Below, piece after piece: positions 3,482-9,239 of a stretch of 23,213 nucleotides of DNA (position 1 is the first letter of the stretch; every line of letters begins with the position of its first letter). The DNA lies in IMG/VR virus record IMGVR_UViG_3300009339_000008, positions 1 to 23,213 of that record. The stretch is one strand, 5' to 3'. Origin of the DNA: a virus. A program made the position numbers and the translations under genes. The notes under the pieces were generated by a model that saw only the letters and a list, made by a program, of their open reading frames with translations, did no database searches and was not told the origin of the DNA.

Positions 3482-3682
3482 ATGAAAATCAAAGACGCAC
3501 CATATTCAAATGATCAACTGTTTGATCAACCAGAACCTGGATTAATAAAACAAGTATTTGTAGAATATAGAAGCAAACCCAAAGGTGTAGAAGTAATTAC
3601 AACTACTAGAAACTATCATGGAACTGATGATTACTTTGATAGTGTAACAGTGGAATTTTTACAAACACATGCCACTAAGTAA
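3482..3682 (+). CDS. Unknown 66-residue protein overlapping the large terminase start
   Basis: The frame runs from ATG 3482 to TAA 3680-3682 and overlaps the first 14 bases of the large terminase gene, a typical coupling arrangement. The product is acidic to neutral and soluble, with predicted strand segments (LIKQVFVEYRSK, GVEVITTTRNY, FDSVTVEFL). No family is recognised. There is no convincing Shine-Dalgarno site; the start is preceded by GAGAACCCCCA. A small head-assembly or terminase-accessory protein is possible from position only. Confidence 0.55.
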   Translation: MKIKDAPYSNDQLFDQPEPGLIKQVFVEYRSKPKGVEVITTTRNYHGTDDYFDSVTVEFLQTHATK

Positions 3683-4904
3683 ACCACAACAAAAGATATT
3701 TGATGATTCGAGTCGCTTCCGTGTAGTAAGTGCAGGTAGACGCTTTGGTAAAAGTTTCTTAAGTGTATGGGAAATGGCTAGAGCAGCCAGATATCCAAAT
3801 CAAAAAGTAATGTATGTTGCACCCAGTTATAGACAAGCCAAAAGTATTATATGGGAAGAACTAAAGAATCAATTAATAAGCAAACGCTGGATCAAAAAAA
3901 TAAACGAAAGTGAATTGAGTATACTGTTAGTAAATGGCAGTACAATAATACTTCGCAGTGCTGACGCAGGGGAGAGTATCCGTGGGTTGGAGTTCGACCT
4001 AGTAATATGTGATGAGATGGCTTTCTTTCCAAATGGAAGCAGTGTATGGACAGATATTATAAGACCAACACTATCAAGCAGACCAGGATCAAAAGCATTG
4101 TTTATTAGTACACCTCAAGGTATGGGTAACTTCTTTTATGACTTGTATCAACAAGGACATACTGTAGAAGATTGGAGCAGTCATCAATATACAACTGCTG
4201 AAGGTGGTAATGTTCCAGAAGAAGAGATACTAGCCGCCAAGCGAGATTTAGATACAAAAACATATTTGCAAGAATATGAAGCAAGTTTTCAAAGCTCAGG
4301 TAATGTTATATACTATGCATTCAAACCAGATAACATACGCAAGTTTGAACATGAGATTCCAAATCAATTACATGTGGGACTTGACCTCAATGTTAGCAAA
4401 ATGGTCGCTATAGTATGTGCAAAGTATACAGATGGATTACATATAATAGATGAAGTAGTATTACGCAATACTAACACAGATGAAATATGTCAAGCATTGC
4501 GAGAACGGTACCCTGGTAAACGCATATACATATATGCAGATCCGGCTGGTAAGCAAAGGCGTACAAGTGCAAGAGATAACACTGATCATACCATAATAAC
4601 ACAATGGGGTATGGAGTTAAGATCACCGCGAGCACATCCACTAGTTAAAGATAGAATCAATGCAGTAAACAGACTGTTATGCAATGCAGAAGAACAAAGA
4701 CATTTGTTTGTGGATCCACAGTGTAAAGAAAGCATAGAAGCATTAAGCAAACAACAATACAAGCCCGGCACAAACATTCCTATAAAAGACGCAGAATTTG
4801 GTTATGATGGTGTAAATGATGGTATAGGATACGCAGTAAGTTATCTATATCCATTGCGTAAAGAATACACACAACGCACACAAAAGGTATTTGGAGCCTG
4901 GTAA
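3669..4904 (+). CDS. Terminase large subunit (packaging ATPase-nuclease)
   Basis: This 411-residue protein drives DNA into the prohead and cuts the concatemer. The N-terminal ATPase shows a Walker A of the terminase type, SAGRRFGKS (residues 21-29), a Walker B with catalytic acid LVICDE (111-116) and the coupling motif STP (147-149). The C-terminal RNase H-like nuclease shows the expected spaced acidic residues: D239 in GLDLN, D291 in YADPAG and D380/D384 in YDGVNDGIGYA. Both domains appear intact. The start is ATG 3669, inside the end of the upstream small gene. The gene is the last before the regulatory island at 4905-6563 and is separated from the small subunit by about 2.7 kb. Known terminases act at the portal vertex, whose gene follows at 7001. 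Confidence 0.93.
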   Translation: MPLSKPQQKIFDDSSRFRVVSAGRRFGKSFLSVWEMARAARYPNQKVMYVAPSYRQAKSIIWEELKNQLISKRWIKKINESELSILLVNGSTIILRSADAGESIRGLEFDLVICDEMAFFPNGSSVWTDIIRPTLSSRPGSKALFISTPQGMGNFFYDLYQQGHTVEDWSSHQYTTAEGGNVPEEEILAAKRDLDTKTYLQEYEASFQSSGNVIYYAFKPDNIRKFEHEIPNQLHVGLDLNVSKMVAIVCAKYTDGLHIIDEVVLRNTNTDEICQALRERYPGKRIYIYADPAGKQRRTSARDNTDHTIITQWGMELRSPRAHPLVKDRINAVNRLLCNAEEQRHLFVDPQCKESIEALSKQQYKPGTNIPIKDAEFGYDGVNDGIGYAVSYLYPLRKEYTQRTQKVFGAW

Positions 4905-4921: not shown

Positions 4922-4950
4922 TTGACAATAGCAAGAATTCTTGCTATAAT
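4922..4950 (+). promoter_or_regulatory. Consensus promoter P1 with a 20-bp palindromic operator in its spacer
   Basis: TTGACA (4922-4927) and TATAAT (4945-4950) are both perfect sigma-70 boxes with a 17-nt spacer. The perfect palindrome ATAGCAAGAATTCTTGCTAT (4928-4947) fills the spacer and overlaps the -10, as expected of a repressor site that blocks polymerase. The preceding AAAAGGTTGACAA is repeated at P2. The predicted start of transcription is near 4957. Confidence 0.85.
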
Positions 4951-4956
4951 ATGTTT

Positions 4957-5041
4957 ATAAATTAACCCACAGTGCATCTCTCCTATTGCAAGCGTTAATT
5001 CTCTAATGTTAAACATTGCAGGATGTATTGTGGGTTTTTTT
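4957..5041 (+). ncRNA. Candidate about 85-nt small RNA ending in an intrinsic terminator
   Basis: A transcript from P1 would start near 4957 and end at the seven T residues at 5035-5041. No ribosome site with a usable frame lies between. The arms 4964-4978 and 5022-5036 pair over 15 bp with two G-U pairs (AACCCACAGTGCATC with GATGTATTGTGGGTT). The 43-nt apical region can form a further short stem, TGCAA (4987-4991) with TTGCA (5016-5020). The outer stem and U-run work as an intrinsic terminator, so this unit is closed: promoter, operator, RNA, terminator. A related stem-loop closes the neighbouring ParB-like gene at 6165. The alternative is that it is only a leader with strong attenuation ahead of P2 and the ParB-like gene. 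Confidence 0.6.
4964..5041 (+). terminator. Intrinsic terminator closing the P1 transcript
   Basis: A 15-bp stem (4964-4978 with 5022-5036) is followed by seven T residues (5035-5041). It would stop both the P1 transcript and read-through from the large terminase gene before P2. The stem is longer and the loop far larger than in a minimal terminator, which is why the whole is also listed as a candidate RNA. Confidence 0.75.
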
Positions 5042-5065
5042 GTAGCTAAAAAGTAGCACAAAAGG

Positions 5066-5094
5066 TTGACAAATACAGTATAATACTGTATATT
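5066..5094 (+). promoter_or_regulatory. Promoter P2 with a 19-bp palindromic operator, driving the ParB-like gene
   Basis: TTGACA (5066-5071) and TATATT (5089-5094) are 17 nt apart. The perfect interrupted palindrome ATACAGTAT-A-ATACTGTAT (5073-5091) occupies the spacer and enters the -10. Transcription would start near 5101, about 70 bases before the ParB-like start codon. Confidence 0.8.
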
Positions 5095-5099
5095 GTTAT

Positions 5100-5127
5100 A
5101 TGTAAGTTGGAAATATTGAACTTACAT
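5100..5127 (+). promoter_or_regulatory. 5'-terminal mRNA hairpin of the ParB-like transcript
   Basis: ATGTAAGTT (5100-5108) and AACTTACAT (5119-5127) pair perfectly over 9 bp around a 10-nt loop, exactly where the P2 transcript should begin. Hairpins at the extreme 5' end of bacterial mRNAs are known to slow decay. The start codon and its strong ribosome site AAAGGAGG (5158-5165) are outside the stem. Confidence 0.5.
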
Positions 5128-5170
5128 TTTATAAACCGGCCGTAGTAACGAGCCAATAAAGGAGGACATT

Positions 5171-6118
5171 ATGTCACAAACTAAGATAAAAGTCGTTGAT
5201 CAGACTGTAAATGATCTACCAATCCCAAACATTTTAAAAAAGTATGTAGGCAAGGAAACAGGTACTAAAGCATCAGCTCAAACAGTATCAGTTAATATTC
5301 CTATGCATATTGCTCAGCGTGATATACATACCAAAGACATTATCAAATGGGTTACTAAAAGCAAAGGCTTTGATTGGAGCTTGTTTGGTGTTGTCACAGT
5401 AGTAGAAGACAGCAAAGGTAATCAAACTTGTTTGGATGCACAACACAGATTACAAATGATCCGTTGGATCTTACCACATGTAACACAAGTACCAGCACAT
5501 ATTATTCAGACAGATGATCCTGCATATGCAAGTAAAGTATTTGCAGGTAAAAATGGTACTATGGTTAGAAGATTAAGTGCCGAAGAACTGTTTTGGGCAC
5601 AAACAATTGAAGGTGATAAACATGCATTGTTTCTAAAAGATATATTAGAAGTTGCAGAAATCAGTTGTGGTAAAGTAAATGAGGGTCCAGATAGAAAAAC
5701 TGTTAAGTATGCTAGTTTTGATAAAAGTGTTAAAATGGGTGCAGATGAAACTGTTTATGCAATTGAATTATTGCAAGAAGCATATCCTAAATCAAACATA
5801 CAAGCACAAGTTATGTGTGGATTAACAAGATTGTTTACACTTAAAAAGTATGAAGATCAAGGTAATCCAGATACTGAACTTGGTAAATTGTTTCATGAAT
5901 GGTTTACACAGATTCTTGCACCAGGACACAAACTAGCAGAATTAAACTTTCCTGAGTATCATAATACAAATGTGTGGCACAATGGTGTTGCATATGGATT
6001 ACAAGAGAAGTTTAACCACTGGTTAGATCGCTTAGGTCACAAGCGTGTACATATTAAGCAAATCAGAGATATCTATCGAGCAGGTATAACTGGAAAAATT
6101 GCTGAAGATGATGAATAA
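5171..6118 (+). CDS. ParB/sulfiredoxin-fold-like protein (DUF6551-like), independently transcribed cargo gene
   Basis: This 315-residue protein resembles phage and plasmid proteins with a ParB N-terminal-like domain. VNIPMHIAQRDI (41-52) is followed by a W-x-x-x-x-G region, FGVVTVVEDSKGNQT (72-86) and the signature CLDAQHRLQMI (87-97), which corresponds to the D-G-Q-H-R box of the family. VPAHII (107-112) and a helical C-terminal two thirds follow. In the family the box binds nucleotide (CTP in true ParB), but this is not proven for phage members. No separate helix-turn-helix is obvious, so DNA binding is uncertain. The gene has its own operator-bearing promoter, a 5' hairpin, a strong ribosome site 5 bases before the start and a terminator, and it interrupts the usual large terminase-portal order. 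It is therefore a moron-like unit, perhaps autoregulated through the P2 palindrome. Confidence 0.7.
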   Translation: MSQTKIKVVDQTVNDLPIPNILKKYVGKETGTKASAQTVSVNIPMHIAQRDIHTKDIIKWVTKSKGFDWSLFGVVTVVEDSKGNQTCLDAQHRLQMIRWILPHVTQVPAHIIQTDDPAYASKVFAGKNGTMVRRLSAEELFWAQTIEGDKHALFLKDILEVAEISCGKVNEGPDRKTVKYASFDKSVKMGADETVYAIELLQEAYPKSNIQAQVMCGLTRLFTLKKYEDQGNPDTELGKLFHEWFTQILAPGHKLAELNFPEYHNTNVWHNGVAYGLQEKFNHWLDRLGHKRVHIKQIRDIYRAGITGKIAEDDE

Positions 6119-6164: not shown

Positions 6165-6205
6165 AACCCACAGTGTAGTACAAGATGCATTGTGGGTTTT
6201 TCTTT
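6165..6205 (+). terminator. Intrinsic terminator after the ParB-like gene, sister of the 4964-5041 stem-loop
   Basis: AACCCACAGTGTA (6165-6177) pairs with TGCATTGTGGGTT (6186-6198), including two G-U pairs, around an 8-nt loop, and is followed by TTTTTCTTT. The left arm starts with the same AACCCACAGTG and the right arm ends with the same ATTGTGGGTTTTT as the 4964-5041 element, so the two copies appear related by duplication or recombination. Confidence 0.8.
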
Positions 6206-6438: not shown

Positions 6439-6485
6439 ATCATAAATACATTATCCAAATAAAAAAGATGATAAATAACAATGTA

Positions 6486-6505
6486 ATTAACTCTGCTCAG
6501 TTAAT
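6486..6505 (+). other. Leader hairpin upstream of the endonuclease/portal operon
   Basis: ATTAACT (6486-6492) and AGTTAAT (6499-6505) form a perfect 7-bp stem with the loop CTGCTC. It lies in the non-coding 6412-6563 stretch, in which I see no frame with a ribosome site. It has no U-run and so is not a terminator. Confidence 0.35.
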
Positions 6506-6535
6506 GGCTAGAAGCATATGTCCAGTGGTGACAGA

Positions 6536-6550
6536 TTAAACTAAACTCAT
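6536..6550 (+). repeat. Right copy of a 15-bp inverted repeat, next to a ribosome site
   Basis: TTAAACTAAACTCAT is the exact reverse complement of 6251-6265 and ends just before the AAGAGGA ribosome site of the endonuclease gene. The minus-strand RNA carries AATGAGTTTAG, complementary to the last 10 bases of this copy, so pairing in trans is possible. Confidence 0.7.
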
Positions 6551-6563
6551 AAGAGGAAAACAG

Positions 6564-6584
6564 ATGAAAACATCAAAACAATTA
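6564..6584 (+). repeat. 21-bp direct repeat, copy 1 (endonuclease start)
   Basis: These 21 bases, starting ATGAAAACATC and ending CAATTA, recur exactly at 7001-7021. Both copies are start codons plus six more codons (MKTSKQL) of their genes. Confidence 0.9.
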
Positions 6585-7001
6585 AGTTCGGTGCATCAGA
6601 AAGCATATCGTGATCACAAATCAAATGCTAAAAGACGCAACATCGAATTCAACTTCACATACGAAGAATGGTTAAACTTTTGGGGCTCAGACATTAACAA
6701 CAGAGGCACTGGAAGTTTAGATTTACAAATGTGTAGATACAATGATACAGGTGCTTATAGCCCTGATAATGTATTTAAAGCTACACACAGAGAAAATGCT
6801 CAACAACAAGATAATAGTAATTATAATGTAGTTCCTGCTACATTGGCAAAACATAAAAAAGTACACACAGACAAAGGTATATTTGAAAGCGTTAAAGAAG
6901 CTGGAGAATACTTTGGATTCAGTGATGTATATGGGACAGTTCGCAACCGTTGTTTAAGCAATAACTATAGCAACTGGTATTATGTAGGAGAAACAGTATA
7001 A
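6564..7001 (+). CDS. Small HNH-like / NUMOD endonuclease, probable free-standing homing endonuclease
   Basis: This 145-residue protein has a basic start (YRDHKSNAKRRNIEF, 15-29) and a segment GSLDLQMCRYNDTGAYSPDNVFKATHRENAQQ (50-81). I know this L-x-M-x-R-x-x-D-x-G-x-Y-x-x-x-N-V-x-x-x-T-x-x-x-N pattern from small phage nucleases of the HNH superfamily, although a canonical HNH triad is not complete. Residues 103-141 (DKGIFESVKEAGEYFGFSDV, then NNYSNWYYV) match the NUMOD type of DNA-binding repeat common in homing endonucleases. The first 11 residues, MKTSKQLSSVH, copy those of the portal protein (MKTSKQLAHVH), and 21 bases are identical. The element therefore appears to have entered at the portal start and used its initiation region. 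Its stop overlaps the portal ATG (TAATG). Confidence 0.7.
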   Translation: MKTSKQLSSVHQKAYRDHKSNAKRRNIEFNFTYEEWLNFWGSDINNRGTGSLDLQMCRYNDTGAYSPDNVFKATHRENAQQQDNSNYNVVPATLAKHKKVHTDKGIFESVKEAGEYFGFSDVYGTVRNRCLSNNYSNWYYVGETV

Positions 7002-7021
7002 TGAAAACATCAAAACAATTA
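7001..7021 (+). repeat. 21-bp direct repeat, copy 2 (portal start)
   Basis: An exact copy of 6564-6584. Beyond it the two genes still agree in spirit (x-x-V-H) but not in third positions, so the duplication is not brand new. Confidence 0.9.
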
Positions 7022-8461
7022 GCTCATGTTCACGCTGGGTATGCAGAATATGCCTATAGATGGGACTATTATATGCGTTCATACATGGGAGCAGAAGAAT
7101 ACAGAGATGGTGCATACTTGCGTAAATATATTGCAGAAGATCAAGCACCAGGAAATCAATATCAACAAAGATTAGTAGACACAGCGTTGCAAAACCATGT
7201 GCGTCAAATAGTAGATGCATATAGAAGTTTCTTATTCCGTAACCCACCTAGAAGAACAATGGGTTCATTAGCGGATAATCCATTTGCAATGCAATTTTTA
7301 GAAAATACAGATTTAGATTATACAACATTAAATGACTTCATGCGTGAAGTTAATGATATGGTAACAATTTATGGTGGTGCCTGGATCGCATTAGATAGAC
7401 CGGCCTACCAAGTGGAAACTGTTGCACAGGAAATAGCTGAAGATATCAGGACATATGCTACACTCTACAGTCCAACAAATGTAAGAGACTGGAGTTTTAG
7501 CAAAAAAACAAATGGTCAGAGAGTATTAGATTATGTAAAAGTAATTGATGAATCATATGAAGATTATGATGTAATACGCTGTTGGCATCCTGATATGATT
7601 GAAGTATATACAGTACAAAAAAGTGAGAGTGCTGATTATACTTTACGAGAAACTGGTATACATGAACTAAACAATGTTCGTGACAGTATAGCAATTGATT
7701 ATGGTAAAATACTCAATTATACTGAGTATGAAAACACACTAGGCTATGTTCCGTTTATACATGTGCAAACGGACAAAAGTTTCCACAAGGGCATTGGTAC
7801 AAGTGCAGTAGGTGATGTATGCGATTTAACTCGCGAAATATACAACTTGACATCGGAATTGTATCAGACGATTCGCATATCGTCTGCCCCTAGTATTGTG
7901 GCCGAACCTGCTGCAGAAATAAATGGTGGCGCTGGAGCTATTATTACAATTCCAGAAGACACTACAAACACACCATACTTGCTACAACCAACTGGTGCAA
8001 GTGTTGATGGTATCTTAAAAAGCATACAACAAAAAGTAGATGCTATTGATGAGTTATCACACTTAACTGCTATTAAGGCCAAAAAAGGTCCTCAAAGTGG
8101 AATCAGTTTACAAGTAGAAAAAGAAATGTTGAATGCCAAGTTGGCAGACACAGCTGGTGTATTAGAAGCAGCAGAAAAGAAAATGTGGATGATGTGGTTC
8201 GATTTACAAGGAATGGAAGCACCAGAAGAATTCTACATTGAATATGAAAAGAGTTTCGATCTCAGAGACAAATCACAAGAACTAGCATTGTATACAAATG
8301 CAGCAGCGGCTGTACCACATGATAGTTTCAAACACTATATGCACAATGAAATTGCAAGGTTAATGATCACAGATGAAAGTGATTTGCAAGTGGTGTTAGA
8401 TGAGATCGCAAAAGATCACGCTAATATGGATGTTGAAGTACCAGGTACTGACAACTCATAA
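7001..8461 (+). CDS. Portal protein
   Basis: This 486-residue protein would form the dodecameric ring at the capsid vertex through which the large terminase pumps DNA. The length and pattern fit the SPP1 gp6-like portal group. An N-terminal segment with YQQRLVDTALQNHVRQIVDAYRSFLF (53-78) precedes NPPRR, a DNA-channel clip region lies in the middle, and a helical region follows (about 330-430; HLTAIKAKKGPQSGISLQVE). An acidic C-terminus closes the protein. The start is ATG 7001 with TAGGAG (6985-6990) 10 bases upstream, inside the endonuclease gene. Its first codons are duplicated in that gene. It is followed by a stem-loop at 8477 and the scaffold gene, the usual portal-scaffold-capsid order. 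Confidence 0.88.
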   Translation: MKTSKQLAHVHAGYAEYAYRWDYYMRSYMGAEEYRDGAYLRKYIAEDQAPGNQYQQRLVDTALQNHVRQIVDAYRSFLFRNPPRRTMGSLADNPFAMQFLENTDLDYTTLNDFMREVNDMVTIYGGAWIALDRPAYQVETVAQEIAEDIRTYATLYSPTNVRDWSFSKKTNGQRVLDYVKVIDESYEDYDVIRCWHPDMIEVYTVQKSESADYTLRETGIHELNNVRDSIAIDYGKILNYTEYENTLGYVPFIHVQTDKSFHKGIGTSAVGDVCDLTREIYNLTSELYQTIRISSAPSIVAEPAAEINGGAGAIITIPEDTTNTPYLLQPTGASVDGILKSIQQKVDAIDELSHLTAIKAKKGPQSGISLQVEKEMLNAKLADTAGVLEAAEKKMWMMWFDLQGMEAPEEFYIEYEKSFDLRDKSQELALYTNAAAAVPHDSFKHYMHNEIARLMITDESDLQVVLDEIAKDHANMDVEVPGTDNS

Positions 8462-8543: not shown

Positions 8544-9239
8544 ATGGACGAACAAAAACAAGTCATAGAAAACACTGAAGTTGAATCTACTGGTGATACA
8601 ACAATTCAGGAAACAACAAATAACCAGGCTGAGAAACTTTTCAAACAAGAAGATGTTGATCGTATTATTGCAAACAGACTTAAACAAGTTGAACGCAAAT
8701 ATGAAGGCATTGACTTAGAAGAGTATAACAATCTGAAAACTGCGGCTGAGCAGGCCAAAGAAAATCAGATGATGAAAAAAGAGCAGTTTGAAGAACTACT
8801 ACACAAGCAAAAAAGCGAAGCTGATCAAAAGTTAGCTAATATGCAAGCACAACTTGAAAAAGTACATGTGGATGGTGCCTTATTAAGTGCAGCATCAAAG
8901 CATAAAGCAGTTAACCCAGAACATGTAGCTGATTTGCTTAAAGCACAAGTCCGTTATAATGATGGAAAAGTGGAAGTATTAGACTCAAACGGCGAGTTGC
9001 GTTACAACACAAATACTGCAGAACCAGTAACATTGGATGAAGCAGTAAGCGAGTTCATGCAACAAAACGCATATTTCAAAGCGGCACAACCAGCAGGAAG
9101 TGGTGCTAATGGAAATGCAAAACATACAACTTCAAGAGAAGTTAAATTATCGGATCTCGATATGAACAATCCAGAGCATAGAGCCTTATACGCTCAAAAG
9201 CACAAGATTGGAAATTCGAGAAAGTTCAGTACTAAGTAA
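8544..9239 (+). CDS. Head scaffolding protein
   Basis: This 231-residue, highly charged protein should template capsid assembly and be expelled or degraded afterwards. A polar N-terminus is followed by FKQEDVDRIIANRLKQVERKYEG, a motif I know from many phage scaffold proteins. A long coiled coil comes next (about residues 35-115, Glu/Lys/Gln-rich, EQFEELLHKQKSEADQKLAN). The C-terminus is basic (KIGNSRKFSTK), as expected for the coat-binding end of scaffolds. The start is ATG 8544, with AGGGAG (8529-8534) 9 bases upstream. A TTG at 8523 in the same frame has no such site and is rejected. No protease motif is visible, so cleavage, if any, is not encoded in this gene. The stop lies inside the 9230-9250 hairpin. 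Confidence 0.8.
   Translation: MDEQKQVIENTEVESTGDTTIQETTNNQAEKLFKQEDVDRIIANRLKQVERKYEGIDLEEYNNLKTAAEQAKENQMMKKEQFEELLHKQKSEADQKLANMQAQLEKVHVDGALLSAASKHKAVNPEHVADLLKAQVRYNDGKVEVLDSNGELRYNTNTAEPVTLDEAVSEFMQQNAYFKAAQPAGSGANGNAKHTTSREVKLSDLDMNNPEHRALYAQKHKIGNSRKFSTK

Follow-up and report, generated by a model that had tools for sequence, protein, structure and literature searches.

To our knowledge, little has been learned so far about small RNAs in uncultured phages. Lambdoid phages carry 'moron' cassettes, self-contained promoter–gene–terminator inserts between late genes; the insert described here differs in that its predicted product is an RNA, not a protein. Among RNAs with anti-Shine-Dalgarno (aSD) loops, the α-r14/NfeR1 RNAs of rhizobia are chromosomal and built of three hairpins, each with CCUCCUCCC (PMC10746234, PMC3927594), and the aSD motif stays unpaired while the stems differ (PMC10746234). 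Phages encode RNAs of comparable action: PMC12197685 describes c4 RNA of phages P1 and P7, whose loops complement the ribosome-binding region of its target, and sar RNA of phage P22, which is 68/69 nt long and pairs with ant mRNA.

The locus compared here with these systems lies in a linear virus record of 23,213 bases (37% G+C), which was analysed whole and is called the window. It consists of a predicted RNA of about 85 nt behind a promoter that we designate P1, and by sequence or architecture this P1 RNA lies outside the α-r14 and the phage c4/sar families. Where α-r14/NfeR1 RNAs have three hairpins each with CCUCCUCCC, P1 RNA has one hairpin with CUCCUAU and shares the loop type only; closer in this respect is a sister family on the opposite strand, which keeps unpaired aSD loops despite differing stems. 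The likeness would extend to the proposed action, pairing at the translation start, but the RNAs here are phage-encoded and their loops read CUCCUAU or UAUUUCUCCAAA. As proposed, P1 RNA would resemble c4 in being a phage-encoded RNA with a loop complementary to a ribosome-binding region; c4, however, belongs to an immunity circuit, where ant is its one defined target, and no such partner is seen in the 23-kb fragment. Likewise, the partner of sar is ant mRNA, whereas nothing ant-like was identified for P1 RNA, and there is no lysogeny gene among the 10 proteins of this fragment scanned with PHROGs. Rfam 15 at gathering cut-offs gave 0 matches in the window, a relaxed Rfam search over P1 RNA returned chance-level miRNA models only (18.5–21.3 bits, against cut-offs of 70–100), and blastn of the P1 unit against named phages produced matches only at E ~1 or worse. 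A literature search of open-licence papers found no publication on P1 or sister RNAs.

A PHROGs scan of the window places the gene for the terminase large subunit at 3669–4904 and that for the portal at 7001–8461, and also shows scaffold, major head and tape-measure genes. The portal is 35% identical to that of Pelagibacter phage HTVC026P and the terminase 44% identical to that of phage DSL-LC06; the nearest named phages are remote in both cases and suggest a virus of aquatic origin. The terminase–portal interval is hypervariable in this phage clade and holds at least two small-RNA cassettes (Table 1, in which, as throughout, L-numbers denote loci of other contigs compared with the window). 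Other parts of the window have peculiarities of their own. Genes 1454–2140 and 2152–2886 adjoin and both match phrog_8198, likely a tandem duplication. The same 21 bases open an HNH-type gene (6564–6584) and the portal gene (7001–7021), which suggests that the HNH gene was inserted at the portal start; L005 lacks the HNH gene. A stretch 5′ of the HNH and portal genes (6480–6560, CTCAGTTAATGGC..GCATATGTCC..GACAG), kept in L005, L029, L030, L033, L036, L041 and L044, is possibly a structured leader, with changes among relatives that are apparently matched.

P1 matches the consensus at 12 of 12 positions and is the only exact TTGACA-N17-TATAAT in the window; shuffled windows averaged 0.03 exact matches, with 3 of 100 having one. 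Before it stands AAAAAAGG, the scan flagged a TG before its −10, and the AAAAGG-TTGACA context is found again in relatives. The 20-bp palindrome in its spacer is the window's only perfect palindrome of at least 16 bp, where simulation gave 0.58 per window at this length and 0.03 at 20 bp or more. The original prediction was right on both the perfect promoter and the 20-bp palindrome. It had also held that P1 far exceeds the promoters around it; P1 does rank above them, but not by far, as P2 and P3 score 11/12 and each has a spacer palindrome.

A transcript from P1 is likely, and promoter spacing would put its start at 4957. The computed fold of this RNA reaches −31.2 kcal/mol, compared with −12.8 ± 2.6 for shuffles (z = −7.0; 0 of 200 as low), and takes the form of a long terminator hairpin; the U7 expected at its end is there, and the stem, previously given as 15 bp, is one pair longer. 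The claim that the stretch has no usable frame was nearly right: no Shine-Dalgarno-led frame of at least 20 codons lies between P1 and the terminator, but an ATG at 5006 opens 16 codons (21 in L003) that run through the terminator. With its promoter, fold and terminator, the self-contained small-RNA unit of the original prediction is still the best reading, as a predicted short non-coding RNA.

Table 1. Features of the P1 locus, of its neighbours in the window and of related RNAs in other contigs.
Feature	Position	Strand	Basis or remark
Promoter P1, TTGACA-N17-TATAAT, 12/12	4922–4950 (TTGACA 4922, TATAAT 4950)	+	pattern scan
Putative operator, 20-bp perfect palindrome ATAGCAAGAATTCTTGCTAT in P1 spacer, touching −10	4928–4947	.	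palindrome scan
Predicted non-coding P1 RNA, ~85 nt, start inferred	4957–5041	+	fold
Long terminator hairpin	4964–5036	+	basal stem 16 bp, 4964–4979/5021–5036
One-sided unpaired CUCCUAU bulge, proposed seed, complementary to Shine-Dalgarno	4980–4986	+	fold, duplex tests
Inner 5-bp helices of P1 RNA	4987–4991/5016–5020, 4995–4999/5008–5012	+	fold; 3×3 internal loop between
Apical loop UCUCUAAU, 8 nt, possible second seed	5000–5007	+	fold
U7 after P1 hairpin	5035–5041	+	sequence
Junction between P1 terminator and P2	5042–5065	.	differences between near-identical contigs
Promoter P2, 11/12, spacer palindrome ATACAGTATAATACTGTAT at 5073–5091	5066–5094	+	promoter scan; predicted to drive 315-aa gene
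315-aa ORF of next cassette, distantly ParB-like	5171–6118	+	24.6% identity to ParB/RepB/Spo0J-annotated record, E 7e-6
Terminator of 315-aa-gene cassette	6165–6198	+	scan; arms resemble P1 RNA hairpin arms
Promoter P3, 11/12, spacer palindrome TATAACAGTGTTATA	6410–6382	−	promoter scan
Second predicted small RNA, ~166 nt	6377–6212	−	fold z −5.6; conserved in clade
Terminator of minus-strand RNA	6246–6217	−	scan
Sister YUCC loops: UUAUUUCUCCAAUC window; UUAUUUCUCCAAAAU L005; GUAUUUCUCCAAAAU L044; GGUUUCUCCUAUG L030
Sister YUCC loops: CACUCCUAUUACAA L041; CUAUUUCCAAUAAU L033, L036; UAUUUUUCCUAUUA L051
Plus-strand structured RNA after small gene	L032:5941–6053, L033:6507–6620, L036:3993–4108	+

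We tentatively read the P1 unit as a phage gene for a trans-acting small RNA that masks Shine-Dalgarno sites. Its transcription, repressor, aSD pairing and targets we infer as follows. Host RNA polymerase would start at P1 when a putative palindrome-binding repressor, of phage or host, is off its site, and the transcript would stop at its own hairpin and U-run. CUCCUAU, and possibly UCUCUAAU, exposed outside the long stem, would pair with the Shine-Dalgarno regions of target mRNAs and lower their translation. By analogy, P1 RNA may act as the sister RNAs seem to, its CUCCUAU bulge masking such sites.

The strongest support for this small-RNA reading is the adjoining conserved minus-strand unit. 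From its 5′ end, this sister RNA has UGUUGAGUA, tetraloop hairpins, a long stem with loop UUAUUUCUCCAA and a terminator, and this same gene, with promoter, UGUUGAGUA, hairpins, long stem and terminator, lies upstream of the portal gene in 16 of 17 relatives compared by portal (the L042 sequence is truncated too early to judge, and that of L053 is incomplete in its 3′ part). There are 12 distinct forms, and promoter and RNA are inverted together in L041 and L044. The stems diverge strongly while an unpaired or loop-side YUCC stretch (UUUCUCC-type) stays, and two of the loops, CACUCCUAUUACAA in L041 and UUUCUCCUAUG in L030, are similar to the loop CUCUCCUAUUGCAA of P1 RNA; P1 RNA has neither UGUUGAGUA nor the tetraloop hairpins. 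These hairpins show compensating double changes in 7 of 7 pairs over seven rows, a count that is partly circular, since perfect hairpins were picked, and whose seven rows may not all be homologous. For the minus-strand RNAs of L032, L033 and L036, which make three rows only, double changes occur at 1 of 24 pairs (reached by 185 of 500 shuffles); an automatic alignment with errors along the long stem was left out of the covariation counts. Judged from sequence, the minus-strand sister RNAs are a candidate new RNA family. Another reading of these RNAs, in which their opposite strand would hold a ribosome site and a very short frame (in the window GGAGAAATAAAACAATG, 8 codons), we rejected because promoter and terminator run the other way and invert with the RNA in L041 and L044.

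Further structured RNAs occur in the compared contigs. The plus-strand RNAs of L032, L033 and L036, convergent to the minus-strand RNA, combine two 7-bp hairpins (GAGA and GAGU loops) with a long stem and the same aSD loop, and the long stem has double compensating changes in L036; over these three rows only, double changes affect 2 of 24 pairs, a count reached by 50 of 500 shuffles; neither this set nor the three-row minus-strand one is distinct from its shuffles. No promoter was found for them, and here the opposite strand may hold a ribosome site and a very short frame. The word T[AG]TTTCTCCA[AT] has 6 distinct contexts among the ~348,000 distinct 31-mers examined, all 6 in intergenic hairpins; two of these RNAs, on the plus strands of L032 and L050, are unlike the sister family, and the word is found again in L129 and L143. 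A scan for TGTATTTCTCCAAAA gave at least 120 loci, and among 80 examined 65 lie in frames of at least 60 aa, which makes most occurrences beyond the clade a matter of chance; at 9 of the 80, a frame of at least 30 aa begins on the opposite strand. A third hairpin RNA, around 2082 (+) in L050 and also in L143, contains UUGUAUUUCUCCAAAAAC within a long stem and is followed by a terminator.

The P1 operator recurs in other phage contigs. An IMG/VR pattern scan for the promoter with an AGCAAG/CTTGCT palindrome found 20 stretches, two of them near-identical contigs of the window virus; a looser pattern, run on 30 records, matched 22 of them in 45 rows, and 0 when read backwards, with 20 of the 30 records having been fetched for carrying one operator site and only L028 and L044 matching among the other 10. 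The palindromic operator originally proposed is borne out to the extent that its motif stands in 18 further stretches, but those stand before protein genes. At the loci examined, an open frame follows 21 of 22 distinct class promoters, the exception being P1: 17 have a Shine-Dalgarno-led frame, three (L006, L009, L017) a 201-aa frame that opens 2 nt after the presumed start and is counted as open but not as Shine-Dalgarno-led, one (L019, 9221) a frame with a weak Shine-Dalgarno judged by eye, and one none. On these counts the palindrome very probably serves small phage genes as a common operator, and the T4-type clamp-loader gene in operator-bearing L019 shows that the class extends to unrelated phages. 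A P1-type promoter and operator is, on this showing, not peculiar to RNA genes. In a genome collection, the operator scan gave a single match, the Lachnospiraceae MAG contig L038, which we take as chance or unrelated. At L059 8521 (−), a promoter is followed by ~210 nt with CUCCUUUC, a strong terminator and no Shine-Dalgarno-led frame, possibly another small-RNA unit.

The frames after class promoters favour the rival that we take most seriously, although we consider it rather unlikely: a relic at a cassette boundary, in which recombination between cassette ends removed the small early protein gene of P1, leaving a transcript that meets the boundary terminator and has no function in trans. Several loci do end cassettes in a terminator followed by AAAAGG-TTGACA; the arms of the P1 terminator resemble those of the terminator after the 315-aa gene (81% match between the two regions); and differences among near-identical contigs cluster in the stretch between P1 terminator and P2, likely a cassette junction: of the 32 and 21 differences to the two contigs, 6 in each case fall at 5044–5059. 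A boundary terminator, however, has no need of a long double-bulged hairpin, and those of L028, L031 and L010 are compact. The promoter, the palindrome and the hairpin of the P1 unit are each intact, with no visible decay, and L031 and L032 repeat the promoter–RNA–terminator layout with an unrelated RNA.

In these two relatives (terminase 64% identical), the order is that of the window: promoter, ~115 nt of non-coding sequence unrelated to P1 RNA, an AACCCAC/GTGGGTT terminator, a second promoter and a gene. Relatives at 82–87% identity have other cassettes in place of the P1 unit. Downstream sequence was read in 11 of the 12 terminase relatives (L034 ends inside the gene), and among these 11 only L026, from a near-identical contig, has P1 RNA after the terminase gene. 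Its place is taken in L027, which lies on the L005 contig, by an 87-codon frame (92 codons from a TTG), in L028 by a terminator with a further operator promoter, in L029 and L030 by other content, and in L033 and L036 by a promoter leading straight into a gene; the remote relatives L035 and L037 have nothing resembling the P1 unit. Searched with its loop left free, the P1 hairpin turned up in only two contigs, both near-identical to the window; a TCTCTCCTATTGCAAG scan found 11 stretches, two being these contigs and the other nine having no P1-like unit. The near-identical contigs are 99.7–99.8% identical to the window, with 0 differences in the 120 bp of 4922–5041 where ~0.3 would be expected, a figure uninformative about selection; confined to such copies, P1 RNA offers neither covariation nor a selection signal.

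A second rival, raised in the original prediction, is an attenuated leader of the 315-aa gene, with P1 transcripts stopping at U7 or reading on when the hairpin is opened. The gene is on the same strand and starts 130 nt downstream of U7, but the hairpin is very stable, the 214-nt fold holds no alternative antiterminator, and there is no leader peptide with a Shine-Dalgarno. Moreover, after the terminator the gene has a promoter of its own in P2, which is kept in L005, where P1 is absent. This option is weak, and we hold it to be decidedly unlikely. The 315-aa ORF had no match in Pfam and PHROG searches. In its own leader (5101–5170), one hairpin has a GGAAA loop; L005 keeps this hairpin, and L028 has a similar AAGUUGGAAA hairpin. 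Another in the leader, CCGG..GUAGU..GCC, resembles one in the L031 RNA.

Very unlikely, in our estimate, is a decoy, in which the RNA or the palindromic DNA would titrate an RNA-binding factor or the operator-class repressor: the perfect 20-bp palindrome is stronger than most of its class, but one site per genome fragment means little titration, and no known protein-binding motif was recognised in P1 RNA. Highly improbable is a small membrane peptide from ATG 5006 (MLNIAGCIVGFFVAKK, longer in L003), whose frame is open in both variants but has no Shine-Dalgarno, starts inside the hairpin and crosses the terminator U-run.

For the reading as a trans-acting small RNA, we computed pairing at gene starts. 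Against 255 starts, the P1 loop pairs at a mean of −8.5, compared with a mean of −6.4 and a best of −8.1 for shuffled loops (150 of the 255 starts used), as expected of any aSD sequence, and a CUCC-type word in ~23 unpaired bases of such composition is not rare (~0.14, an estimate). Of the 27 starts in the window, that of the scaffold gene at 8544 pairs best (−15.4 kcal/mol), a non-significant result, as 15% of shuffled loops do equally well (p = 0.15); the mean over the 27 is reached by 4%. In relatives that lack P1, the orthologous scaffold starts give still better pairing with the P1 loop (−17 kcal/mol), so no co-adaptation is seen. The sister seed UGUAUUUCUCC, for its part, exactly complements GGAGAAAUACA before the ATG of genes in L008, L012, L020, L022 and L050, and several contigs with GGAGAAAUACA-AUG starts also carry the operator class. 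A broader proposal, which seems to us quite unlikely, is that the clade carries a set of unrelated-looking RNA cassettes (P1, minus-strand, L032/L033/L036 plus-strand and L050), all with an aSD loop; through the complementarity just described, these RNAs could block translation in competing phages or that of their own phage's early genes.

The main value of the P1 finding is the conserved sister family reached through it, which is open to modelling and searching. If real, the P1 unit would be a compact system for phage translation control, made up of 85 nt with a single promoter and a single operator, and phages would swap RNA genes as cassettes, as they do small protein genes.
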